The position numbers and the translations under genes were made by a program. A DNA stretch of 37,633 nt from the NCBI GenBank assembly GCA_002457605.1, contig NTJT01000010.1:1-37633 (forward strand). Direction: 5' to 3'. The notes under the pieces were generated by a model, which saw only the letters and a list, made by a program, of their open reading frames with translations, ran no database searches and was not told the DNA's origin. Each line of letters begins with the position of its first letter. Position 1 is the stretch's first letter. Source of the stretch: Marine Group II euryarchaeote MED-G34 (GTDB lineage Archaea; Thermoplasmatota; Poseidoniia; Poseidoniales; Thalassarchaeaceae). Positions 19,247 to 29,235 of the stretch are shown piece after piece.

Positions 19247-22200
19247 ATGCGTAGCCTGCCTCCCTTCTTTCTGGTGTCTTTACTGCTCGTCATGAGCATG
19301 GCCCCTTTGGCTGCAAACTCAGTGATGCTTCCAACTGCCGAGGAACGTGCAGCCACTCCAAAGGCACTGATTGACTTCGAAGTCACCTCTATCGAGCTCG
19401 GCGACTCTCTGACTGCATCCCTGCAGTGGGACCAGCCGGACAACTCCACACTAGAATACGTCCTCCGGGACGAGTCCGTTTTGGTGAGTATCACATTCAC
19501 TCAGGCTGGCACATCAAGCCAGCCTGCCTACGCCGAGGGTTGGATGCAGGTCTGGCATCCCGTCGGATTCCTGATGGAGGAACACTATGTCAACATGACA
19601 CTGTCTGGCCTGCAGTCTACCACCGAGACATTCTACTGGACTCCGAGCGCTGCTCACAGTGCTATTGATGAAGAGGGTAATCTCTACGGCGGAATCATAC
19701 TGCGTGGCACCATTGATGGTGGACTCGCTGATGACAATGAGGACAACAACGAGTTCGATAGAGAAGTACCGGTGGCAGTCTGGAAGGACCCTATGGACAA
19801 TGGATTCTGTGGGGATGTGGACGGCGATCAGGTCGTCGACTGCACCAACCAACTCAGCGCCAACGAACCGACATGGGTCGGAGCCGGATATGATTCGGAC
19901 GGAACTCTTTCATCGGACCCTGACTACTACGGGCACTGGAGGATGGAGAATGCCTCCAGCGACGAGGGCGAGATGCACTGGAGGGTATCGGCACCGGGCT
20001 CAGACTACGCCAGCAACAGACATGACCGGCTCTGGTGGGGCTGGTTCACTCCGTTCGACAACTGCGACGATCCAGGACATGGGCTCAAGTACGGGACTCT
20101 AGACTCAGCAGTCTCGGCACTGTACGGCAACAATTTCTGCAAGATTAGAGTACGGTCGTTCGATTTCATATCAATGCACTTGGTGACTGCCGCATGGGGG
20201 GAGATGGCTGCCGGCGACACCATCAGAATAGAGGCCGACGCCGGAGGATCTTTGGAGCATTACAACTACTCTGCACAAAACCTCTCGAAGAACCACGGCG
20301 ACTGGTCACGATTGGTCTGGAACATGACCGACATACATCCCAACGCCGACTACACTCTCGCCTTCAGATTTGATTCTGACAGCTCCTTAGCGAACCAGGG
20401 CATCCATCTGGACTCTTTCTTGATGTTCGGATTTGAGAAGGTTGCAGAGTACACCCTCGACGTCGATTGCGACGATCCGTTGCCCAACGCCTACATGGTG
20501 GTGCCCGACGATTCTAGGCCACCTTCTCTATTCTGCAAAATCAAGAACAATGGGTACGTCGACATCACTCTCCGCTTGTACACTGAAGTCTCCAATCAGA
20601 CTTGGATGAATGGTTACCCCCTAAGGATTGACTCCAACAACAGGTTCGACCACGACAACTACGTTGTCTCTGAGGTCATCAGCGCCCTCGATACAATGAA
20701 CACGTGGTTCAATCTCAGTATTCCCGAGGGCGCCAGTGTCGAGGAGTTGGACTGGTTTGTCTGGATTAACGATGGGACCACTAATCTCTCCAAGGTGTAC
20801 ATCGAACTACCCGTATCGGTCATTGCCGCGTACTCGATCTCCCTAGATCAGAAGGCCCTTGCAAATCCAGCTGCGGTGCTGTATCCAGGGACTACTGGGG
20901 ATGTGGCGATGGTGATGAAGAACACCGGGAACCAGATAGCGACCTGGAATCTAGGCGCTACCTTCGGTGATAGCCGTTGGGGCGATGAGAACTTGATTTG
21001 GCACGATGCCAACGGTTCGGTGGTGACCAGCCTCGCGATGAACATCACCGATGAGTTCGAACTCACAGCAACTGTCATCGTACCCGATGAGATATCACCG
21101 GGCACCTATGCGATAACTCTGCTTGCAAGCGGCAGACCTCCTGCCAATTTCGTAGCCGACTGGACGATATACATCGAGGTCCCGGTATTCCACGACCTAG
21201 TGCTCGAGCCAGAGACCACAGAGATGATGGCCTCTGCCGACGGCTTCCTAAGGCTAATCGAGGTCAGGATGGTTAACAATGGGAACTCAGAGGAGGCATT
21301 CGATCTATCTCTACTGTCGGACTGGAAACTTGGCGTTTCTCTAAATGCGGAGCAGAGCCTTGGGATAGATCCATTCGGGGGGGACAGCACCGTTTTACTG
21401 CTGCTGCCGATGCCTTATGGGATTACCAATGAGACCTATGAGATATGGATAATCGCAGCCAGTCAGGATGACTCGGGCTACCAATCGAGCGTAAGGATTC
21501 TGCTCACAGTCCCTGTTACCAATCTGGTCGAAGTCGAAGACCTTGATATGACAGAGGAGGTGTTCAGGGGAGGGGACGATGCTAGGACTGTTAACTGGGA
21601 AATCTGGAACAACGGCAACGTCAACGACGCTTTCACTATCGATTTTGATACCAGTCACCCAGACGTCTGGGTTCAGGCGACTGGACTAACCAATGGGAGG
21701 ACTCCGTATATTCCAGCAGGTTCGTCACTAAACCTCACCGTGCGCTATTCGTTCGACTTTTCCGCCTCTGGGGAGCGCGACATCACCCTAACCGCATCCA
21801 GCGTTGAGGCTGCTAGTGATGGACTCACAGTAAGTGGTAGTGGAAATGCCGAGTTCATTGTTGGCACACAAGGCTTCTTCCAGATTCTAGCGCCCACACC
21901 ACTGGAGATAGTGGAGAGCGGGGATGACTACGCTCTTGTTTACACAGTGGTCAACCTATATCCCGATGACCAACTCCTGAGGGCCGACATTGACAGGAAC
22001 TCTGACATCTTCTTCAACATCTTCGATGCTCGCGTGGATACGGGCGACAGGGACTTTGTACTACTCGCCAATGAGTCTAGGACCATCACCGTCTGGCTTA
22101 CGGTGACCGATGACAACCTAGAGAATCTCCTAGAGAACGAAATGACCTTCGGAATAGTACTCGAGGTCGACGGTGACAGGGACAAGGTCTCGATGAACGG

Positions 22201-22753
22201 GTCTGTAATCATGTACAAGCTGAATCCCATTGAAACTGGAGTCGACGTCGAGGAGACAGCTTGGTGGGCCGGTAATATCCTGTTCCTCCTCATCGGACTG
22301 GGAGTCGTGGTCGCGGTTCTAGTGGCCTCGCTCAGGATATTCAAGAGTGCGACCGCTCCAATGGAGGAGATCTCTACCCTAGATACCTACGAAATGACCG
22401 TAGATGGTAGCGGCTGGGGAGATCAAGACGGAATCCCAAACGCTCCAGAACTTCCTGCAGACGACGAGGTGGCTAATTCAATGTACGGAGGTGCAAAGGA
22501 AATCTTTGAACAGCCTCCGGAGATGCCCCCTCCTCCTTCCGTAGAGCCTGAACCCGAGCCTGAGCCTGAACCCGAGCCCGAGCCTGAACCCGAGCCCGAG
22601 CCTGAGCCTGAACCCGAGCCTGAACCCGAGCCTTCGTTTGAACTTCCTCCAGGAGTGCCACCGATTCCAGAGAATGGCCTTCCTGAGGGATGGTCACAAG
22701 AGCAGTGGATTCACTACGGTCAGCGCTGGTTAGATCAACAGAACAGCGAATAA
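19247..22753 (+). CDS. Large secreted/surface protein with CARDB/NEW3-like beta domains, C-terminal TM and EP-repeat cytoplasmic tail
   Basis: Signal peptide FFLVSLLLVMSMAPLAANS; repeated N-x-G-N-x-x-x-A-F/W beta-domain motifs (VNNGNSEEAFDLSLL, WNNGNVNDAFTIDF); TM NILFLLIGLGVVVAVLVASLRIF; tail with (EP)n and GLPEGWSQEQWIHYGQRWLDQQ. Confidence 0.82.
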   Translation: MRSLPPFFLVSLLLVMSMAPLAANSVMLPTAEERAATPKALIDFEVTSIELGDSLTASLQWDQPDNSTLEYVLRDESVLVSITFTQAGTSSQPAYAEGWMQVWHPVGFLMEEHYVNMTLSGLQSTTETFYWTPSAAHSAIDEEGNLYGGIILRGTIDGGLADDNEDNNEFDREVPVAVWKDPMDNGFCGDVDGDQVVDCTNQLSANEPTWVGAGYDSDGTLSSDPDYYGHWRMENASSDEGEMHWRVSAPGSDYASNRHDRLWWGWFTPFDNCDDPGHGLKYGTLDSAVSALYGNNFCKIRVRSFDFISMHLVTAAWGEMAAGDTIRIEADAGGSLEHYNYSAQNLSKNHGDWSRLVWNMTDIHPNADYTLAFRFDSDSSLANQGIHLDSFLMFGFEKVAEYTLDVDCDDPLPNAYMVVPDDSRPPSLFCKIKNNGYVDITLRLYTEVSNQTWMNGYPLRIDSNNRFDHDNYVVSEVISALDTMNTWFNLSIPEGASVEELDWFVWINDGTTNLSKVYIELPVSVIAAYSISLDQKALANPAAVLYPGTTGDVAMVMKNTGNQIATWNLGATFGDSRWGDENLIWHDANGSVVTSLAMNITDEFELTATVIVPDEISPGTYAITLLASGRPPANFVADWTIYIEVPVFHDLVLEPETTEMMASADGFLRLIEVRMVNNGNSEEAFDLSLLSDWKLGVSLNAEQSLGIDPFGGDSTVLLLLPMPYGITNETYEIWIIAASQDDSGYQSSVRILLTVPVTNLVEVEDLDMTEEVFRGGDDARTVNWEIWNNGNVNDAFTIDFDTSHPDVWVQATGLTNGRTPYIPAGSSLNLTVRYSFDFSASGERDITLTASSVEAASDGLTVSGSGNAEFIVGTQGFFQILAPTPLEIVESGDDYALVYTVVNLYPDDQLLRADIDRNSDIFFNIFDARVDTGDRDFVLLANESRTITVWLTVTDDNLENLLENEMTFGIVLEVDGDRDKVSMNGSVIMYKLNPIETGVDVEETAWWAGNILFLLIGLGVVVAVLVASLRIFKSATAPMEEISTLDTYEMTVDGSGWGDQDGIPNAPELPADDEVANSMYGGAKEIFEQPPEMPPPPSVEPEPEPEPEPEPEPEPEPEPEPEPEPEPEPSFELPPGVPPIPENGLPEGWSQEQWIHYGQRWLDQQNSE
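22544..22633 (+). repeat. GAGCCT/GAACCC/GAGCCC hexanucleotide-class repeat encoding about 15 Glu-Pro dipeptides
   Basis: Direct reading of gagcctgaacccgagcctgagcct... Confidence 0.95.
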
Positions 22754-24483: not shown

Positions 24484-24554
24484 AGACCTCGGTTGCACTA
24501 GATTCAATAATCGTGTCAGGGTGCCCAGACTGCCGATAGGCACGAGTGGACTTC

Positions 24555-26525
24555 ATGACGATATTCAGCGTCTTCATCGATGATGGCTGCATCGTCTGCG
24601 ATGCCTGCGAGGAAGCGGCTCCAGACATCTTCGAGGTCACCGAAGACACCTGCTTCATCAAGCCCAATGTTAGACTCGATGGTGGCTACGACCGCAACGT
24701 TACCAAATCTGGACTCAAGCCGGATGTAGTATCTTCTCTCTCAGACGATATCTTCGATGCCGCAGACGCCTGCCCGGTCGATGTCATCATCGTAGTTGAG
24801 GGCACTGGAGAGGAAGTACCCGAGGTAGAGGATGAAGCAGTTTCTCAGCCAGAGGCGGAGATAGTCTCCGAGGAGCCCGTGGAGATAACAGGTGACGACC
24901 TTGAGTCCCTTCTGACTATGGGGGACCGGACGATGAGCATCCTATTCGGCTCGCAGTCAGGAAACTCCGAGGAACTGGCTGCCAAATTCGCGAAGCGGGC
25001 CACCGACTACGGTCTCGACGCAACTGTGCACGATATGGATGGATTCGACCTGTCCTCTCTGCCGGGGATGAAGAGAGTCCTAATCATCTGCTCGACTTGG
25101 GGCGAGGGCGAAATGCCCGACAACGCCGAAGAACTGTGGCTGCAAGCAAGTGCAGACTCAGCACCCAATCTGTCGAATGTTAACTTCTCAATCCTTGCTC
25201 TCGGCGATACCAGCTACGAGTTCTACTGCCAGTCTGGTATGGACTGGGACGACCGACTGCAGCAATTGGGAGCGACTCGCCTACTCGACCGCGTTGACTG
25301 TGATGTGGATTACGACTCTTCTGCTGAAGCTTGGGCCATCGATGCACTTGCAGTGATGGCCGCAGTCGACGGTACCGGCCAGTTCCATGAAGATCAGTTA
25401 GACGCAATCAAGGATCGAGTCAGCGGCGCAGCAGCAGCGGGAGCGGCCGGTGAAGACGGCTTCACCGTTCCTGAGACTGCTGCAGAAGTCATTCAAGCTG
25501 AGATTAGCATATTCAGGTACGATCCTGTCAGTGCCACCGCGGGCAAGGACACCTGGGTCTGTGCCTTGCCCGGTCACATGTCAGTGCTCGAGTCATTGAG
25601 GGCGCTGAAGGAGACTCATGATGGCACCCTTACTTTCAGAGACGGCCCCAGCGATGACCCAGCCACTGCGATATCAGTCAATGGTAGGTTGATTCTACCC
25701 GGTAGTGTCAGACTTGATTCAGTAGCCCCTATCCGAGACGGTGGACTGAGGTTGCGCATAGAGCCCCTGCCATCTTTCGATGTCGTCCGAGACTTAGTTG
25801 TGGATCACTGGTCTCTCGAGAGAGGCAGAGAGTTCTCCAAGCCGTGGATGGTGGCAGCCACTAGGGAAGGTGCCGATACAGCTCAGGGTGTATTGGGGAC
25901 CATGGACCCATCGACTGCAGACATGCTGCATTCGATTACCGACTTTTGCAGCGCTCCACTGCTGCATTCTTGCTCTGATGCCACCCCTCATTCAGAGGAA
26001 TATCTCGGCCCCGCAGTCCTAGCACGAATCTGGGCACGCATTAACGACCCACGCTCTTCAGAATCTAGCATAACTGCGATGCAAGATATATTGGATTCTA
26101 ATGGGGGGATAAAGGCCGAGACCGACCTCGCTTCGATTCGCCGACAGAATGGCTCGGCGAGAATCATTGCTGACGCACTCCTCGACGCGCGGACCTCGAC
26201 TTTGAGCAGAGGTTCATTCAACGGCCGCCATGGCAAGCATGTCTGGTGGTACAGCTGGTCTGTGAAGAGCAGCGGTAGAGTAAATGACACCGTAATCTAC
26301 AGACAGGTTCTCGGTCCTATGGGGCTGCTCGGAAACTTGTTCTCAGGGGTGACTGCCCGCATGGTGTTCGGATTCACCAGGACCGGTGGCAATGTATTCA
26401 ACGGCATGTTGGGAATGTTGGCCCCACCTGCCGGTATCGGAAAGATGCCGAAGCAGTTCAATTCCTCTGTTGACGACCACCACGAGGTCGTCGCGATATT
26501 CAACGAAGTGGATGGTAGGTTCTGA
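24555..26525 (+). CDS. Ferredoxin-flavodoxin-(cysteine-depleted SdhB/FrdB-like) fusion protein
   Basis: N-terminal ferredoxin CIVCDACEEAAPDIF...ACPVDVI; flavodoxin ILFGSQSGNSEELAAKFA...STWGEGEMPDNAEELW...LALGDTSYEFYC; then SdhB-like ISIFRYDPVSA...SVLESLRALKETHDGTLTFRDG...SVNGRLILPG...IEPLPSFDVVRDLVVDH...EEYLGPAVLARIWARINDPR. A GTG at 24546 is an alternative start. Confidence 0.82.
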   Translation: MTIFSVFIDDGCIVCDACEEAAPDIFEVTEDTCFIKPNVRLDGGYDRNVTKSGLKPDVVSSLSDDIFDAADACPVDVIIVVEGTGEEVPEVEDEAVSQPEAEIVSEEPVEITGDDLESLLTMGDRTMSILFGSQSGNSEELAAKFAKRATDYGLDATVHDMDGFDLSSLPGMKRVLIICSTWGEGEMPDNAEELWLQASADSAPNLSNVNFSILALGDTSYEFYCQSGMDWDDRLQQLGATRLLDRVDCDVDYDSSAEAWAIDALAVMAAVDGTGQFHEDQLDAIKDRVSGAAAAGAAGEDGFTVPETAAEVIQAEISIFRYDPVSATAGKDTWVCALPGHMSVLESLRALKETHDGTLTFRDGPSDDPATAISVNGRLILPGSVRLDSVAPIRDGGLRLRIEPLPSFDVVRDLVVDHWSLERGREFSKPWMVAATREGADTAQGVLGTMDPSTADMLHSITDFCSAPLLHSCSDATPHSEEYLGPAVLARIWARINDPRSSESSITAMQDILDSNGGIKAETDLASIRRQNGSARIIADALLDARTSTLSRGSFNGRHGKHVWWYSWSVKSSGRVNDTVIYRQVLGPMGLLGNLFSGVTARMVFGFTRTGGNVFNGMLGMLAPPAGIGKMPKQFNSSVDDHHEVVAIFNEVDGRF

Positions 26526-27385
26526 TGCCACTGAAGTACGCTTATCATCCTGGTAATGTGGCCCACAGCAGCGCTACTGAGGTGGCTGAGACGATGGAAC
26601 CAGTCGCCCAATCACTGGGCATTGAACTGGTCCCGATGAGTGGTGCTACCAGTTGTGGAGCCGGGATAATCAGACAGGCCAGCAGGCGTTTGCAGTTGAC
26701 CCTCAATGCTCGCACCTTTGCAATGGCAGAGGAAATCGGTCTCGATATCATCACACCGTGTGCAGCCACAGCTGGGAACCTGCATGAGGATCTCTCCGCT
26801 CTCAAACAGAATCCCAATCTTCTTGGAGAGGTGAACGAGGTCCTTGAGAGGACCTGCGGCAGGAGATTCTCAGGGGGAGTCGAGGTCCACCATCTCCTAC
26901 ACGTGATAGTGGATGAGGTCGGCCTTGAGAAACTCGAGGCCGCGATACTGAATCCCATCGACTTCGATGTCGCTGCATTCTACGGTCCGAACATACAGCA
27001 GGCCGGAGCCTGTGGGGGCGATGACGTCCACGATCCGGACTACCTCGAACAGGTCATCGATGCCATTGGGGGGAAGCCGGTACAGTGGGAGGGGCGCACA
27101 CAGAGCGTAGGAGTTCCAGGGCTGTTATCTGAAGAGCCGACGGTGCTGCGGCAGGCTGCTGCAGTGCTCCATGAGGCCAAATCTGAGGGAGCAGAACTCA
27201 TTGTAAGTGCTTGTAATCTCTCGCACAGCGTCCTCGATATCTACCAGGGCAAGGCTTCGAGGTCGACCGGACTTGCTACCAATATACCAGTTATCCATCT
27301 AACAGAGATGCTTTCTTTCTCCATGGGCCATCACAACACTAGGCTGGCACAGCTGAGGACTAGGATTGCAGTCATCGGCGACTGA
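26525..27385 (+). CDS. HdrB/CCG-domain-like protein lacking most canonical Fe-S cysteines
   Basis: HdrB-like scaffold: YHPGN..., LGIELVPMSGATSCGAG, IITPCAATAGNL, EVHHLLHVIVDEVG, AAFYGP, DYLEQVIDAIGGKPVQWEGRTQSVG, HEAKSEGAELIVSACNLSHSVLDIYQ, IPVIHLTEMLSFSMG. Overlaps upstream stop (TGATG). Confidence 0.82.
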   Translation: MPLKYAYHPGNVAHSSATEVAETMEPVAQSLGIELVPMSGATSCGAGIIRQASRRLQLTLNARTFAMAEEIGLDIITPCAATAGNLHEDLSALKQNPNLLGEVNEVLERTCGRRFSGGVEVHHLLHVIVDEVGLEKLEAAILNPIDFDVAAFYGPNIQQAGACGGDDVHDPDYLEQVIDAIGGKPVQWEGRTQSVGVPGLLSEEPTVLRQAAAVLHEAKSEGAELIVSACNLSHSVLDIYQGKASRSTGLATNIPVIHLTEMLSFSMGHHNTRLAQLRTRIAVIGD

Positions 27386-29176
27386 CTAAGTATCCTGCTC
27401 AAGGCCATTTTCGGGGTCGATGACGGACTCAACTCCAAACTGTTCCAACCCGGCCTGTCCCTTTGCCCTGAATGTGTCCGGAGGGAGTGTAGGAGGTTCA
27501 CTACTTTCCTGTACTGTGGTGACGTCCGACTCGGTAATTTCTATCCGATGTATCTGGCGTTGACCGGAGACGAATTCCGAGGCAGATATGGTACCGTCAC
27601 CTGAATCAATCTGGAATCTATCTAGGTTGGAGAGATCCGTGTGAGGGCTACGGTGGAGTTTCCTGCGAACCCTGTGCACGGCTCGCTGCATGAATTCCTC
27701 CCTCCTTTCGGAGGACGCCATAGCTCCCTCGTCGCGCGTGTCCTCGGCTATCAGAACAACAACCTCTCCCTCTCGGTGCCTACCGGTCCTACCACGCCTC
27801 TGTATGGTGCGTATTTCACTGGACACCGGTTCGTAGAATATCACTAGGTCGGCGCTAGGGATGTCGAGCCCTTCCTCGCCTACCGAAGTCGCGACCAATA
27901 CATTCGCAGAACCCGATCTAAACTTATCCAGCCTCTCGATCTGCTGCTTGGGAGTCAGTCCTTCTCTGCCCGCACGGCTGGATTGGCCGACAAACTGTAT
28001 GGGACGGGCTCCATCCAACTTGTCTAGGGATTTCTCGACGGCTGCGACAGTATCTCTGAAGGTGGCGAACACTATGATGCGCGAATCTGAGTTCCTGCGA
28101 AGCCTCTCAGAGACGAGTCTTCGGACCGCGCTGACCTTGGTATGGATTTCCCCCATCTCGGTTAGACTCTTGCGTAGGCTCGAAACCCGTCCGTCCCTCA
28201 GGAAGTTTCGAGTTGATTTGTTCTGAGACTGTTCACTCCTTGAGAGCCGCTCAAGGAACTCGCTTGAGGCGGCGACGCCCTGACACAACAGGTGGTTGAT
28301 TAGGTGGTGCAGACGCATCGCTGTGGCAATTCTAGAAACCGATTGGTAGGCGCTGGATTCACCCCTAGAAATTGCCTGCTGGGCACGCTCCATTGCATTG
28401 GACAGCCCAGCATGGCTGATTGCACCGGGCATGACGTACCTGCCTAGTCTCCTCTCTCGGTCGACGATGCCGCTCTGCCACATGACTAGGGGCTCTGCGA
28501 GCTCTCTAATCTGATTTGGGACCCTGACCTTTACCTCTTGGATTTCCAATCCTGCTAGGTGCTGTGCCACCATCGCGTCGGCACCTGTCTTTAGATGGAT
28601 TCTACCTATCCCCAATCGGCTGCAGACTTCCTCGACCTGATTGGTCTTGGAACCCGGGCTCGCTGTAGTGGCTAGGACGAGCGGTTCGGTTGACTGTGAA
28701 AGATACAAGTCCCCGACTTGAGCCATCGCGTGATCTCCCGTCGAGTGATGCGCCTCATCGACAATGAGGAGAGAGCAGTCAGAGAGGTCCAAGACTCCTC
28801 GGGAGACATCGTTCCTGACAACCTGCGGGGTCGCTACTATGAGTCTGGACGAGCCCCAAAGAGCAGATCGCTTCGCGACCGGGTTCTGACCTGTCACGGA
28901 TATCGGATTGACTGAAGCATTGCTTGACAGCACGGACTCAATTCCACGCAGGTGCTGTTCTACTAGAGCGACGGTCGGAGCAATCATCAGGATCCAGCCG
29001 TCACTGCTCTCTAATCGGTCGGCGATTACCATCCATGCGACCACCGTCTTACCAGCAGCGGTTGGCAGAACGAGCATCATCGATCCGGAAAGTGCCTCAT
29101 CTGTAGCCTCGAGCTGGTAAGCACGGGCCTCAATTAGCCCCGGCGTGAGGCTCGGATGAAGAATTCCGTGCTGCAT
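27386..29176 (-). CDS. Hef/Mph1-like superfamily 2 helicase, no ERCC4 nuclease domain
   Basis: ARAYQLEATDEAL; motif I LPTAAGKTVVAWMV; DEAH motif IVDEAHHS; LATTASPG; motif V-VI ATSVGEEGLDIPSADLVIFYEPV...RRGRTGRH. The C-terminus shows no recognisable nuclease or HhH motif. Confidence 0.88.
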   Translation of the reverse strand: MQHGILHPSLTPGLIEARAYQLEATDEALSGSMMLVLPTAAGKTVVAWMVIADRLESSDGWILMIAPTVALVEQHLRGIESVLSSNASVNPISVTGQNPVAKRSALWGSSRLIVATPQVVRNDVSRGVLDLSDCSLLIVDEAHHSTGDHAMAQVGDLYLSQSTEPLVLATTASPGSKTNQVEEVCSRLGIGRIHLKTGADAMVAQHLAGLEIQEVKVRVPNQIRELAEPLVMWQSGIVDRERRLGRYVMPGAISHAGLSNAMERAQQAISRGESSAYQSVSRIATAMRLHHLINHLLCQGVAASSEFLERLSRSEQSQNKSTRNFLRDGRVSSLRKSLTEMGEIHTKVSAVRRLVSERLRRNSDSRIIVFATFRDTVAAVEKSLDKLDGARPIQFVGQSSRAGREGLTPKQQIERLDKFRSGSANVLVATSVGEEGLDIPSADLVIFYEPVSSEIRTIQRRGRTGRHREGEVVVLIAEDTRDEGAMASSERREEFMQRAVHRVRRKLHRSPHTDLSNLDRFQIDSGDGTISASEFVSGQRQIHRIEITESDVTTVQESSEPPTLPPDTFRAKGQAGLEQFGVESVIDPENGLEQDT

Positions 29177-29235
29177 GGACCCGCATCTTGGAAGTCAGGG
29201 TTCAAAATCGTTGCACAATCCTAGGATTATCCTTA

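Follow-up and report, generated by a model that had tools for sequence, protein, structure and literature searches.

We analysed a window of 37,633 nucleotides, one contig (NTJT01000010.1) of the 1.03-Mb, 66% complete draft genome of the Marine Group II euryarchaeote MED-G34, and describe two adjoining plus-strand genes within it (24555..27385) whose products, relatives of the complex II subunits SdhB and SdhE, lack all or most of the cysteines that hold iron-sulfur (Fe-S) clusters in their counterparts, while an intact [4Fe-4S] ferredoxin and an intact flavin mononucleotide (FMN) flavodoxin are fused to the N-terminus of the SdhB relative. For the pair, which we call SdhB' and SdhE', an sdhABE-type complex II is the most likely ancestor. 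As to what it does now, we regard it as roughly an even call that it is a complex-II-derived, largely iron-free platform with tethered, interchangeable one-electron carriers, on which an SdhA-like flavoprotein (SdhA') is seated and exchanges electrons with them directly.

Gene 1 (24555..26525, 656 amino acids) begins at ATG 24555, with an alternative GTG at 24546, and its stop codon (26523-26525) overlaps by 1 nt the ATG at 26525 of gene 2 (26525..27385, 286 amino acids), such that the two are translationally coupled. The ferredoxin module (24555..24803; Fer4_13, 1.1e-6) has its ligands C12, C15, C18 and C73 in place, and the CysJ-type flavodoxin (24921..25379; Flavodoxin_1, 2.4e-30) its phosphate, W and Y loops. 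Then follow an SdhB beta-grasp domain (25488..25793; Fer2_3, 1.6e-8), an SdhB helical domain (25902..26213) and a C-terminal extension (26214..26522) with the pattern ..LNE..LV.Q.. The body of the protein is, by sequence, homologous to SdhB over the Fer2_3 and helical domains (6.6e-15 to the NCBIfam SdhB model and 2.7e-14 to the SdhB chain of a solved structure), and a structure model was good for the ferredoxin, the flavodoxin and part of the helical domain. To define the ligand positions we aligned SdhB' to six cluster-bearing homologs from f6, a family in the same phylum; below, f1 and f2 are the two families of the Marine Group II order, f1 being the window's own, and f3 is their sister family, the remaining one of the same class and outside the order. 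Not one of the 12 cluster cysteines remains in the window, neither at the four [2Fe-2S] positions of the beta-grasp domain nor at the eight positions of the other two cluster sites in the helical domain, and across 110 complete distinct homologs, on which all ligand and architecture counts here are based, only 2 of 1320 ligand cells were seen to hold a cysteine. Two of the former ligand positions are now invariant, S474 (25974-25976) and E522 (26118-26120), each in 110/110 copies; the other ten vary, many being hydrophobic or small (F, V, I, L, A, P, G). Ferredoxin ligands are intact in 63 of 64 ferredoxin matches and FMN loops in 139 of 145 flavodoxin domains. An initial annotation, made from the sequence alone, had claimed two intact, coupled frames, an SdhB module stripped of its cysteines and a ferredoxin-flavodoxin with its sites kept, and all of this held, as did every residue replacement that it quoted in the two proteins; the alignment further established that the loss in SdhB is order-wide and no local error. 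Within the C-terminal extension lies an order-specific insert, with an invariant RM..GFTR.G, that is missing from f6 SdhB.

Gene 2 matches CCG (2e-9) and the NCBIfam models HdrB (8e-39) and MFR SdhE (1.4e-32), and the HdrB-type fold that had been proposed for it was borne out by AlphaFold2, with a mean predicted local distance difference test score (pLDDT) of 91 and HdrB chains as the best PDB matches (template modelling (TM) score 0.87-0.89, ~28% identity). A Pfam hit to Asp/Glu racemase (E 0.009) was set aside, racemase structures matching weakly beside HdrB, with E values no better than 3.6e-3 and query TM scores no higher than 0.36. In the window the first CCG domain (CCG1; 26525..26944) reads N11, S43, C44, C79 and T82 at its ligand positions and the second (26960..27382) P155, S194, V195, C230 and S233, leaving 3 of the 10 ligand cysteines (C44, C79 and C230). 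The initial annotation's loss of cysteines from the HdrB module is therefore correct for the window, and for the second CCG set, in which four of the five ligands are gone order-wide and C230 alone remains, but it is not universal in CCG1, since 18 of the 110 copies retain all five cysteines there and one more reads CCCSC. The remaining copies form one clade with NSCCT and another with NSD/NGD-C-S/A, and the tree fits two losses in which C11N and C43S arose in parallel, although a long outgroup branch makes the position of its root uncertain. Among aligned copies S194 and C230 are conserved in 109/109 and C79 in 108/109.

The best matches to both genes outside the order adjoin each other in f6 (L213, L218, L211), where the gene order is sdhA-sdhB-sdhE, sdhA carries the motif that links flavin adenine dinucleotide (FAD), and SdhB has every cluster cysteine together with the same C-terminal extension as SdhB'. 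It is because these closest cluster-bearing relatives form an sdhA-sdhB-sdhE operon that we favor SdhABE-type ancestry. The pair had been proposed to form a TfrB-like complex with a lost cluster chain; the homology to SdhB and HdrB/SdhE and the ligand loss stand, but the nearest relative is a two-gene SdhB-SdhE and not the fused TfrB. A separate canonical sdhB, for which a check had been proposed, is present on another contig of the same genome, cluster-bearing and beside a canonical SdhA, and canonical SdhA-SdhB has been reported for Marine Group II generally (PMC6336850).

Both genes are widespread and under constraint. Gene 2 was present in 129 of 150 own-family genomes and in all 14 of those at least 90% complete, and the SdhB' part in nearly all sampled f1 and f2 genomes (three from f2 appear among those lacking it); it was not found in any of the eight sampled f3 genomes. 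In 16 sister pairs the ratio of nonsynonymous to synonymous substitution rates (dN/dS) was 0.013-0.082 for both genes, indicating strong purifying selection, and with the order-wide conservation this excludes pseudogenes, as the intact frames had already been taken to indicate. The f2 copy L111 (genome G445, genus g16) is CCG1-lost and has two flavodoxins while two sampled congeners, L072 and L073, are CCG1-intact with ferredoxin and flavodoxin, and it looks like a gene replacement; L134 and L158 are Marine Group II-type copies on contigs titled Deltaproteobacteria and Chloroflexi, which are probably mislabelled records.

What, then, has happened to the carriers at the N-terminus? Ferredoxin-flavodoxin heads occur in 63 of the copies, flavodoxin-flavodoxin in 36, flavodoxin only in 10 and ferredoxin only in one. 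Altogether 46 of the 110 homologs have no ferredoxin module, 36 of them carrying a second flavodoxin and 10 a single one. By parsimony, at least 15 changes in ferredoxin presence and at least 21 in architecture are needed. In one sister pair, L116 and L119, the SdhB' bodies are separated by a nonsynonymous divergence (dN) of 0.019, yet the heads differ, and the flanks on either side of the exchanged segment share ~87% nucleotide identity. For the N-terminal flavodoxin at least five changes are required on starred branches, and in places different genera have it in common, which suggests an origin by several duplications plus recombination. All 19 copies that keep CCG1 (the 18 complete and the one CCCSC) have ferredoxin-flavodoxin heads, ferredoxin being absent only where CCG1 has been lost; were head changes spread in proportion to branch length, all 15 would lie within the CCG1-lost part with a probability of 0.015, a rough figure from one tree. 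The fused flavodoxin was the sole Flavodoxin_1 domain found in most of nine genomes checked, as it was in the window's own genome at 66% completeness, and the genome with the ferredoxin-only copy (L103; G110, 91% complete) gave no Flavodoxin_1 match anywhere. The ferredoxin-FMN unit noted initially is thus present with intact sites in gene 1, but the head is variable and belongs to an exchangeable set of carriers.

No catalytic SdhA lies in the operon of the pair, nor does a membrane anchor or catalytic partner gene adjoin it. A search for SdhA-type C-terminal domains found a second, divergent SdhA-type protein in the same genome, SdhA', on a different contig from the pair (L067:1549-3009, G000 contig C4), conserved in both families of the order (L231-L275) and without a comparably strong match outside it. 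In 45 copies the FAD-linking His, the HxMGG active-site His and the GANRLGG catalytic Arg do not figure among the residues common at the corresponding positions, whereas the glycines of the FAD fold are largely kept; crown own-family copies also have no C-terminal tail. SdhA' is itself constrained (dN/dS 0.07-0.17), and in 15 genomes, with thermosome and helicase as control genes, its distances still covary with those of SdhB' (partial r 0.76, permutation p 0.001), more closely than those of SdhB' covary with its neighbour SdhE' (0.46). We consider SdhA' the best partner candidate for the pair and probably a third, unlinked and degenerate subunit; it would bind FAD and form one complex with SdhB' and SdhE'. 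In both families its neighbourhood contains a gene for a large predicted protein upstream, a HIT protein, an acyltransferase and DUF2299, which as a lead only may hint at lipid chemistry.

How might such a complex work? The ancestor would have been the SdhB and SdhE of a complex in the succinate/fumarate or thiol:fumarate oxidoreductase class, and in Marine Group II the platform would have given up its own [2Fe-2S], [4Fe-4S], [3Fe-4S] and CCG clusters in exchange for a replacement carrier tethered at the N-terminus of SdhB', either ferredoxin ([4Fe-4S]) or flavodoxin (FMN), as one module or as two in series. It would still seat the co-conserved, catalytically altered SdhA', and the tethered carrier would trade electrons directly with the FAD of SdhA' or with a platform-bound partner enzyme, domain swinging of the kind found in CysJ and cytochrome P450 reductase taking the place of the cluster chain. 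With intact carriers that are tethered and can be interchanged, and with the former relay gone, a docking platform with a swinging carrier is the simplest reading, and the earlier idea that electrons enter via the ferredoxin-FMN unit, or that the body serves as a scaffold, remains the best putative family of explanations. One candidate electron donor is a POR_N-family 2-oxoacid:ferredoxin oxidoreductase, since each of the 12 genomes examined for it has one. Sulfite reductase, considered as a partner on account of the CysJ-like flavodoxin and a published automatic annotation, was rejected, with no NIR_SIR domain in 12 genomes.

Several observations weigh against the platform. SdhA' is unlinked to the pair, the covariation test comprised 15 genomes and two control genes, and because of long branches the place of SdhA' in the SdhA tree, next to f6 SdhA or elsewhere, is uncertain. 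The gene 1 structure model is poor in the beta-grasp domain and at the C-terminus, where SdhB homology relies on sequence. S474 and E522, being invariant, could belong to a new site and not to a passive platform. Finally, free dicluster ferredoxin-like proteins, their domains in small frames, occur in all genomes checked, and the idea that the fused ferredoxin is the cell's only one was therefore rejected.

A less probable but still credible reading concerns the same three proteins: SdhA'-SdhB'-SdhE' would be an entire complex II paralog turned diflavin-like reductase, in which SdhA' no longer acts on succinate but retains FAD to serve another substrate, the Fe-S chain has been discarded, and the tethered, exchangeable ferredoxin or flavodoxin swings between that FAD and an external partner, an arrangement that would spare iron in the open ocean. 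We think it unlikely that SdhB'-SdhE' is a non-redox structural or regulatory protein, such as a redox or iron sensor whose heads merely report redox state. An SdhB part without any cluster ligands, an SdhE without most of them and the lack of an adjoining anchor or catalytic partner would suit such a protein, but the near-universal integrity of the FMN loops and ferredoxin ligands would not, and the heads have been swapped between two function-matched carriers and not lost, which fits electron transfer. More doubtful is a body that still relays electrons by binding a metal or other cofactor through non-Cys ligands (S474, E522, S194, S233, C79, C230): the invariance or near-invariance of S474, E522, S194, C230 and C79 speaks for it, but only two of the twelve former ligand positions in SdhB are fixed, many of the others being hydrophobic or small, and the second CCG retains a single Cys. 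It is slightly more doubtful again that the pair is an alternative electron-transfer module that docks onto the canonical SdhA, since that gene, although present in the genome and an apt partner for an SdhB homolog, adjoins its own cluster-bearing SdhB, and it is the separate, divergent SdhA' that covaries with SdhB'. Decay or assembly error in a single genome, which only the draft state of the genome could recommend, is refuted by the order-wide conservation in independent assemblies and by the low dN/dS.

Elsewhere at the locus, a thermosome gene lies upstream of the pair and a helicase gene downstream, and a 1168-aa protein with a signal-like N-terminal stretch and a long Pro-Glu repeat near its C-terminus is encoded at 19247-22753. 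On contig C31 of the same genome (G000), a 939-aa frame at ~27670-29180 has Fer4_7 and two CCG matches; after it comes a frame of 113 aa that contains a dicluster ferredoxin domain.

Fe-S chains are usually seen as the reason for complex-II-like modules, and in Marine Group II, among the commonest archaea of the ocean, the complex II scaffold outlasts its chain under strong selection. The replacement of ferredoxin by flavodoxin is a classic physiological response to iron stress between free proteins; here it has been fixed repeatedly inside one fusion gene. Natural sister pairs whose main difference is the carrier head make the evolution of iron economy, and the role of a cofactor-free redox scaffold, directly testable.

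In the open-licence literature we found no description of SdhA', of the loss of ligands or of the exchange of carriers; new here are the repeated exchange of N-terminal carriers and an unlinked, order-wide SdhA' that covaries with SdhB'. A Marine Group II gene-order study shows gene 2 and gene 1 by gene order and under automatic names only, and its passage on them mentions neither lost ligands nor a fusion nor exchanged carriers (PMC6741140). The HdrB of heterodisulfide reductase (5odc, 8rvu, 7bkb) has the same fold as gene 2, but in the window neither non-cubane cluster site is complete and no HdrA or HdrC adjoins. In the thiol:fumarate reductase of methanogens, TfrAB (NCBIfam PRK06259), SdhB and CCG modules go together as in the pair, but TfrB is one fused chain bearing its clusters whereas the pair is two genes that have lost theirs. 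The diflavin reductases CysJ and cytochrome P450 reductase share with gene 1 a tethered CysJ-type FMN carrier domain, but gene 1 has the FMN domain only and no FNR/NADPH domain, and the pair could putatively act in a diflavin-like manner only if SdhA' supplies FAD. Closest is the f6 sdhABE complex, in the class of the 8-methylmenaquinol:fumarate reductase SdhABE of Wolinella and Campylobacter (PMC2680327): there too SdhB is followed directly by SdhE, the SdhB C-terminal extension is shared, and the HdrB/SdhE is the best match to gene 2 outside the order, whereas the pair has no adjoining sdhA, has lost the 12 SdhB ligands and most of those in CCG, and has ferredoxin or flavodoxin fused to SdhB.
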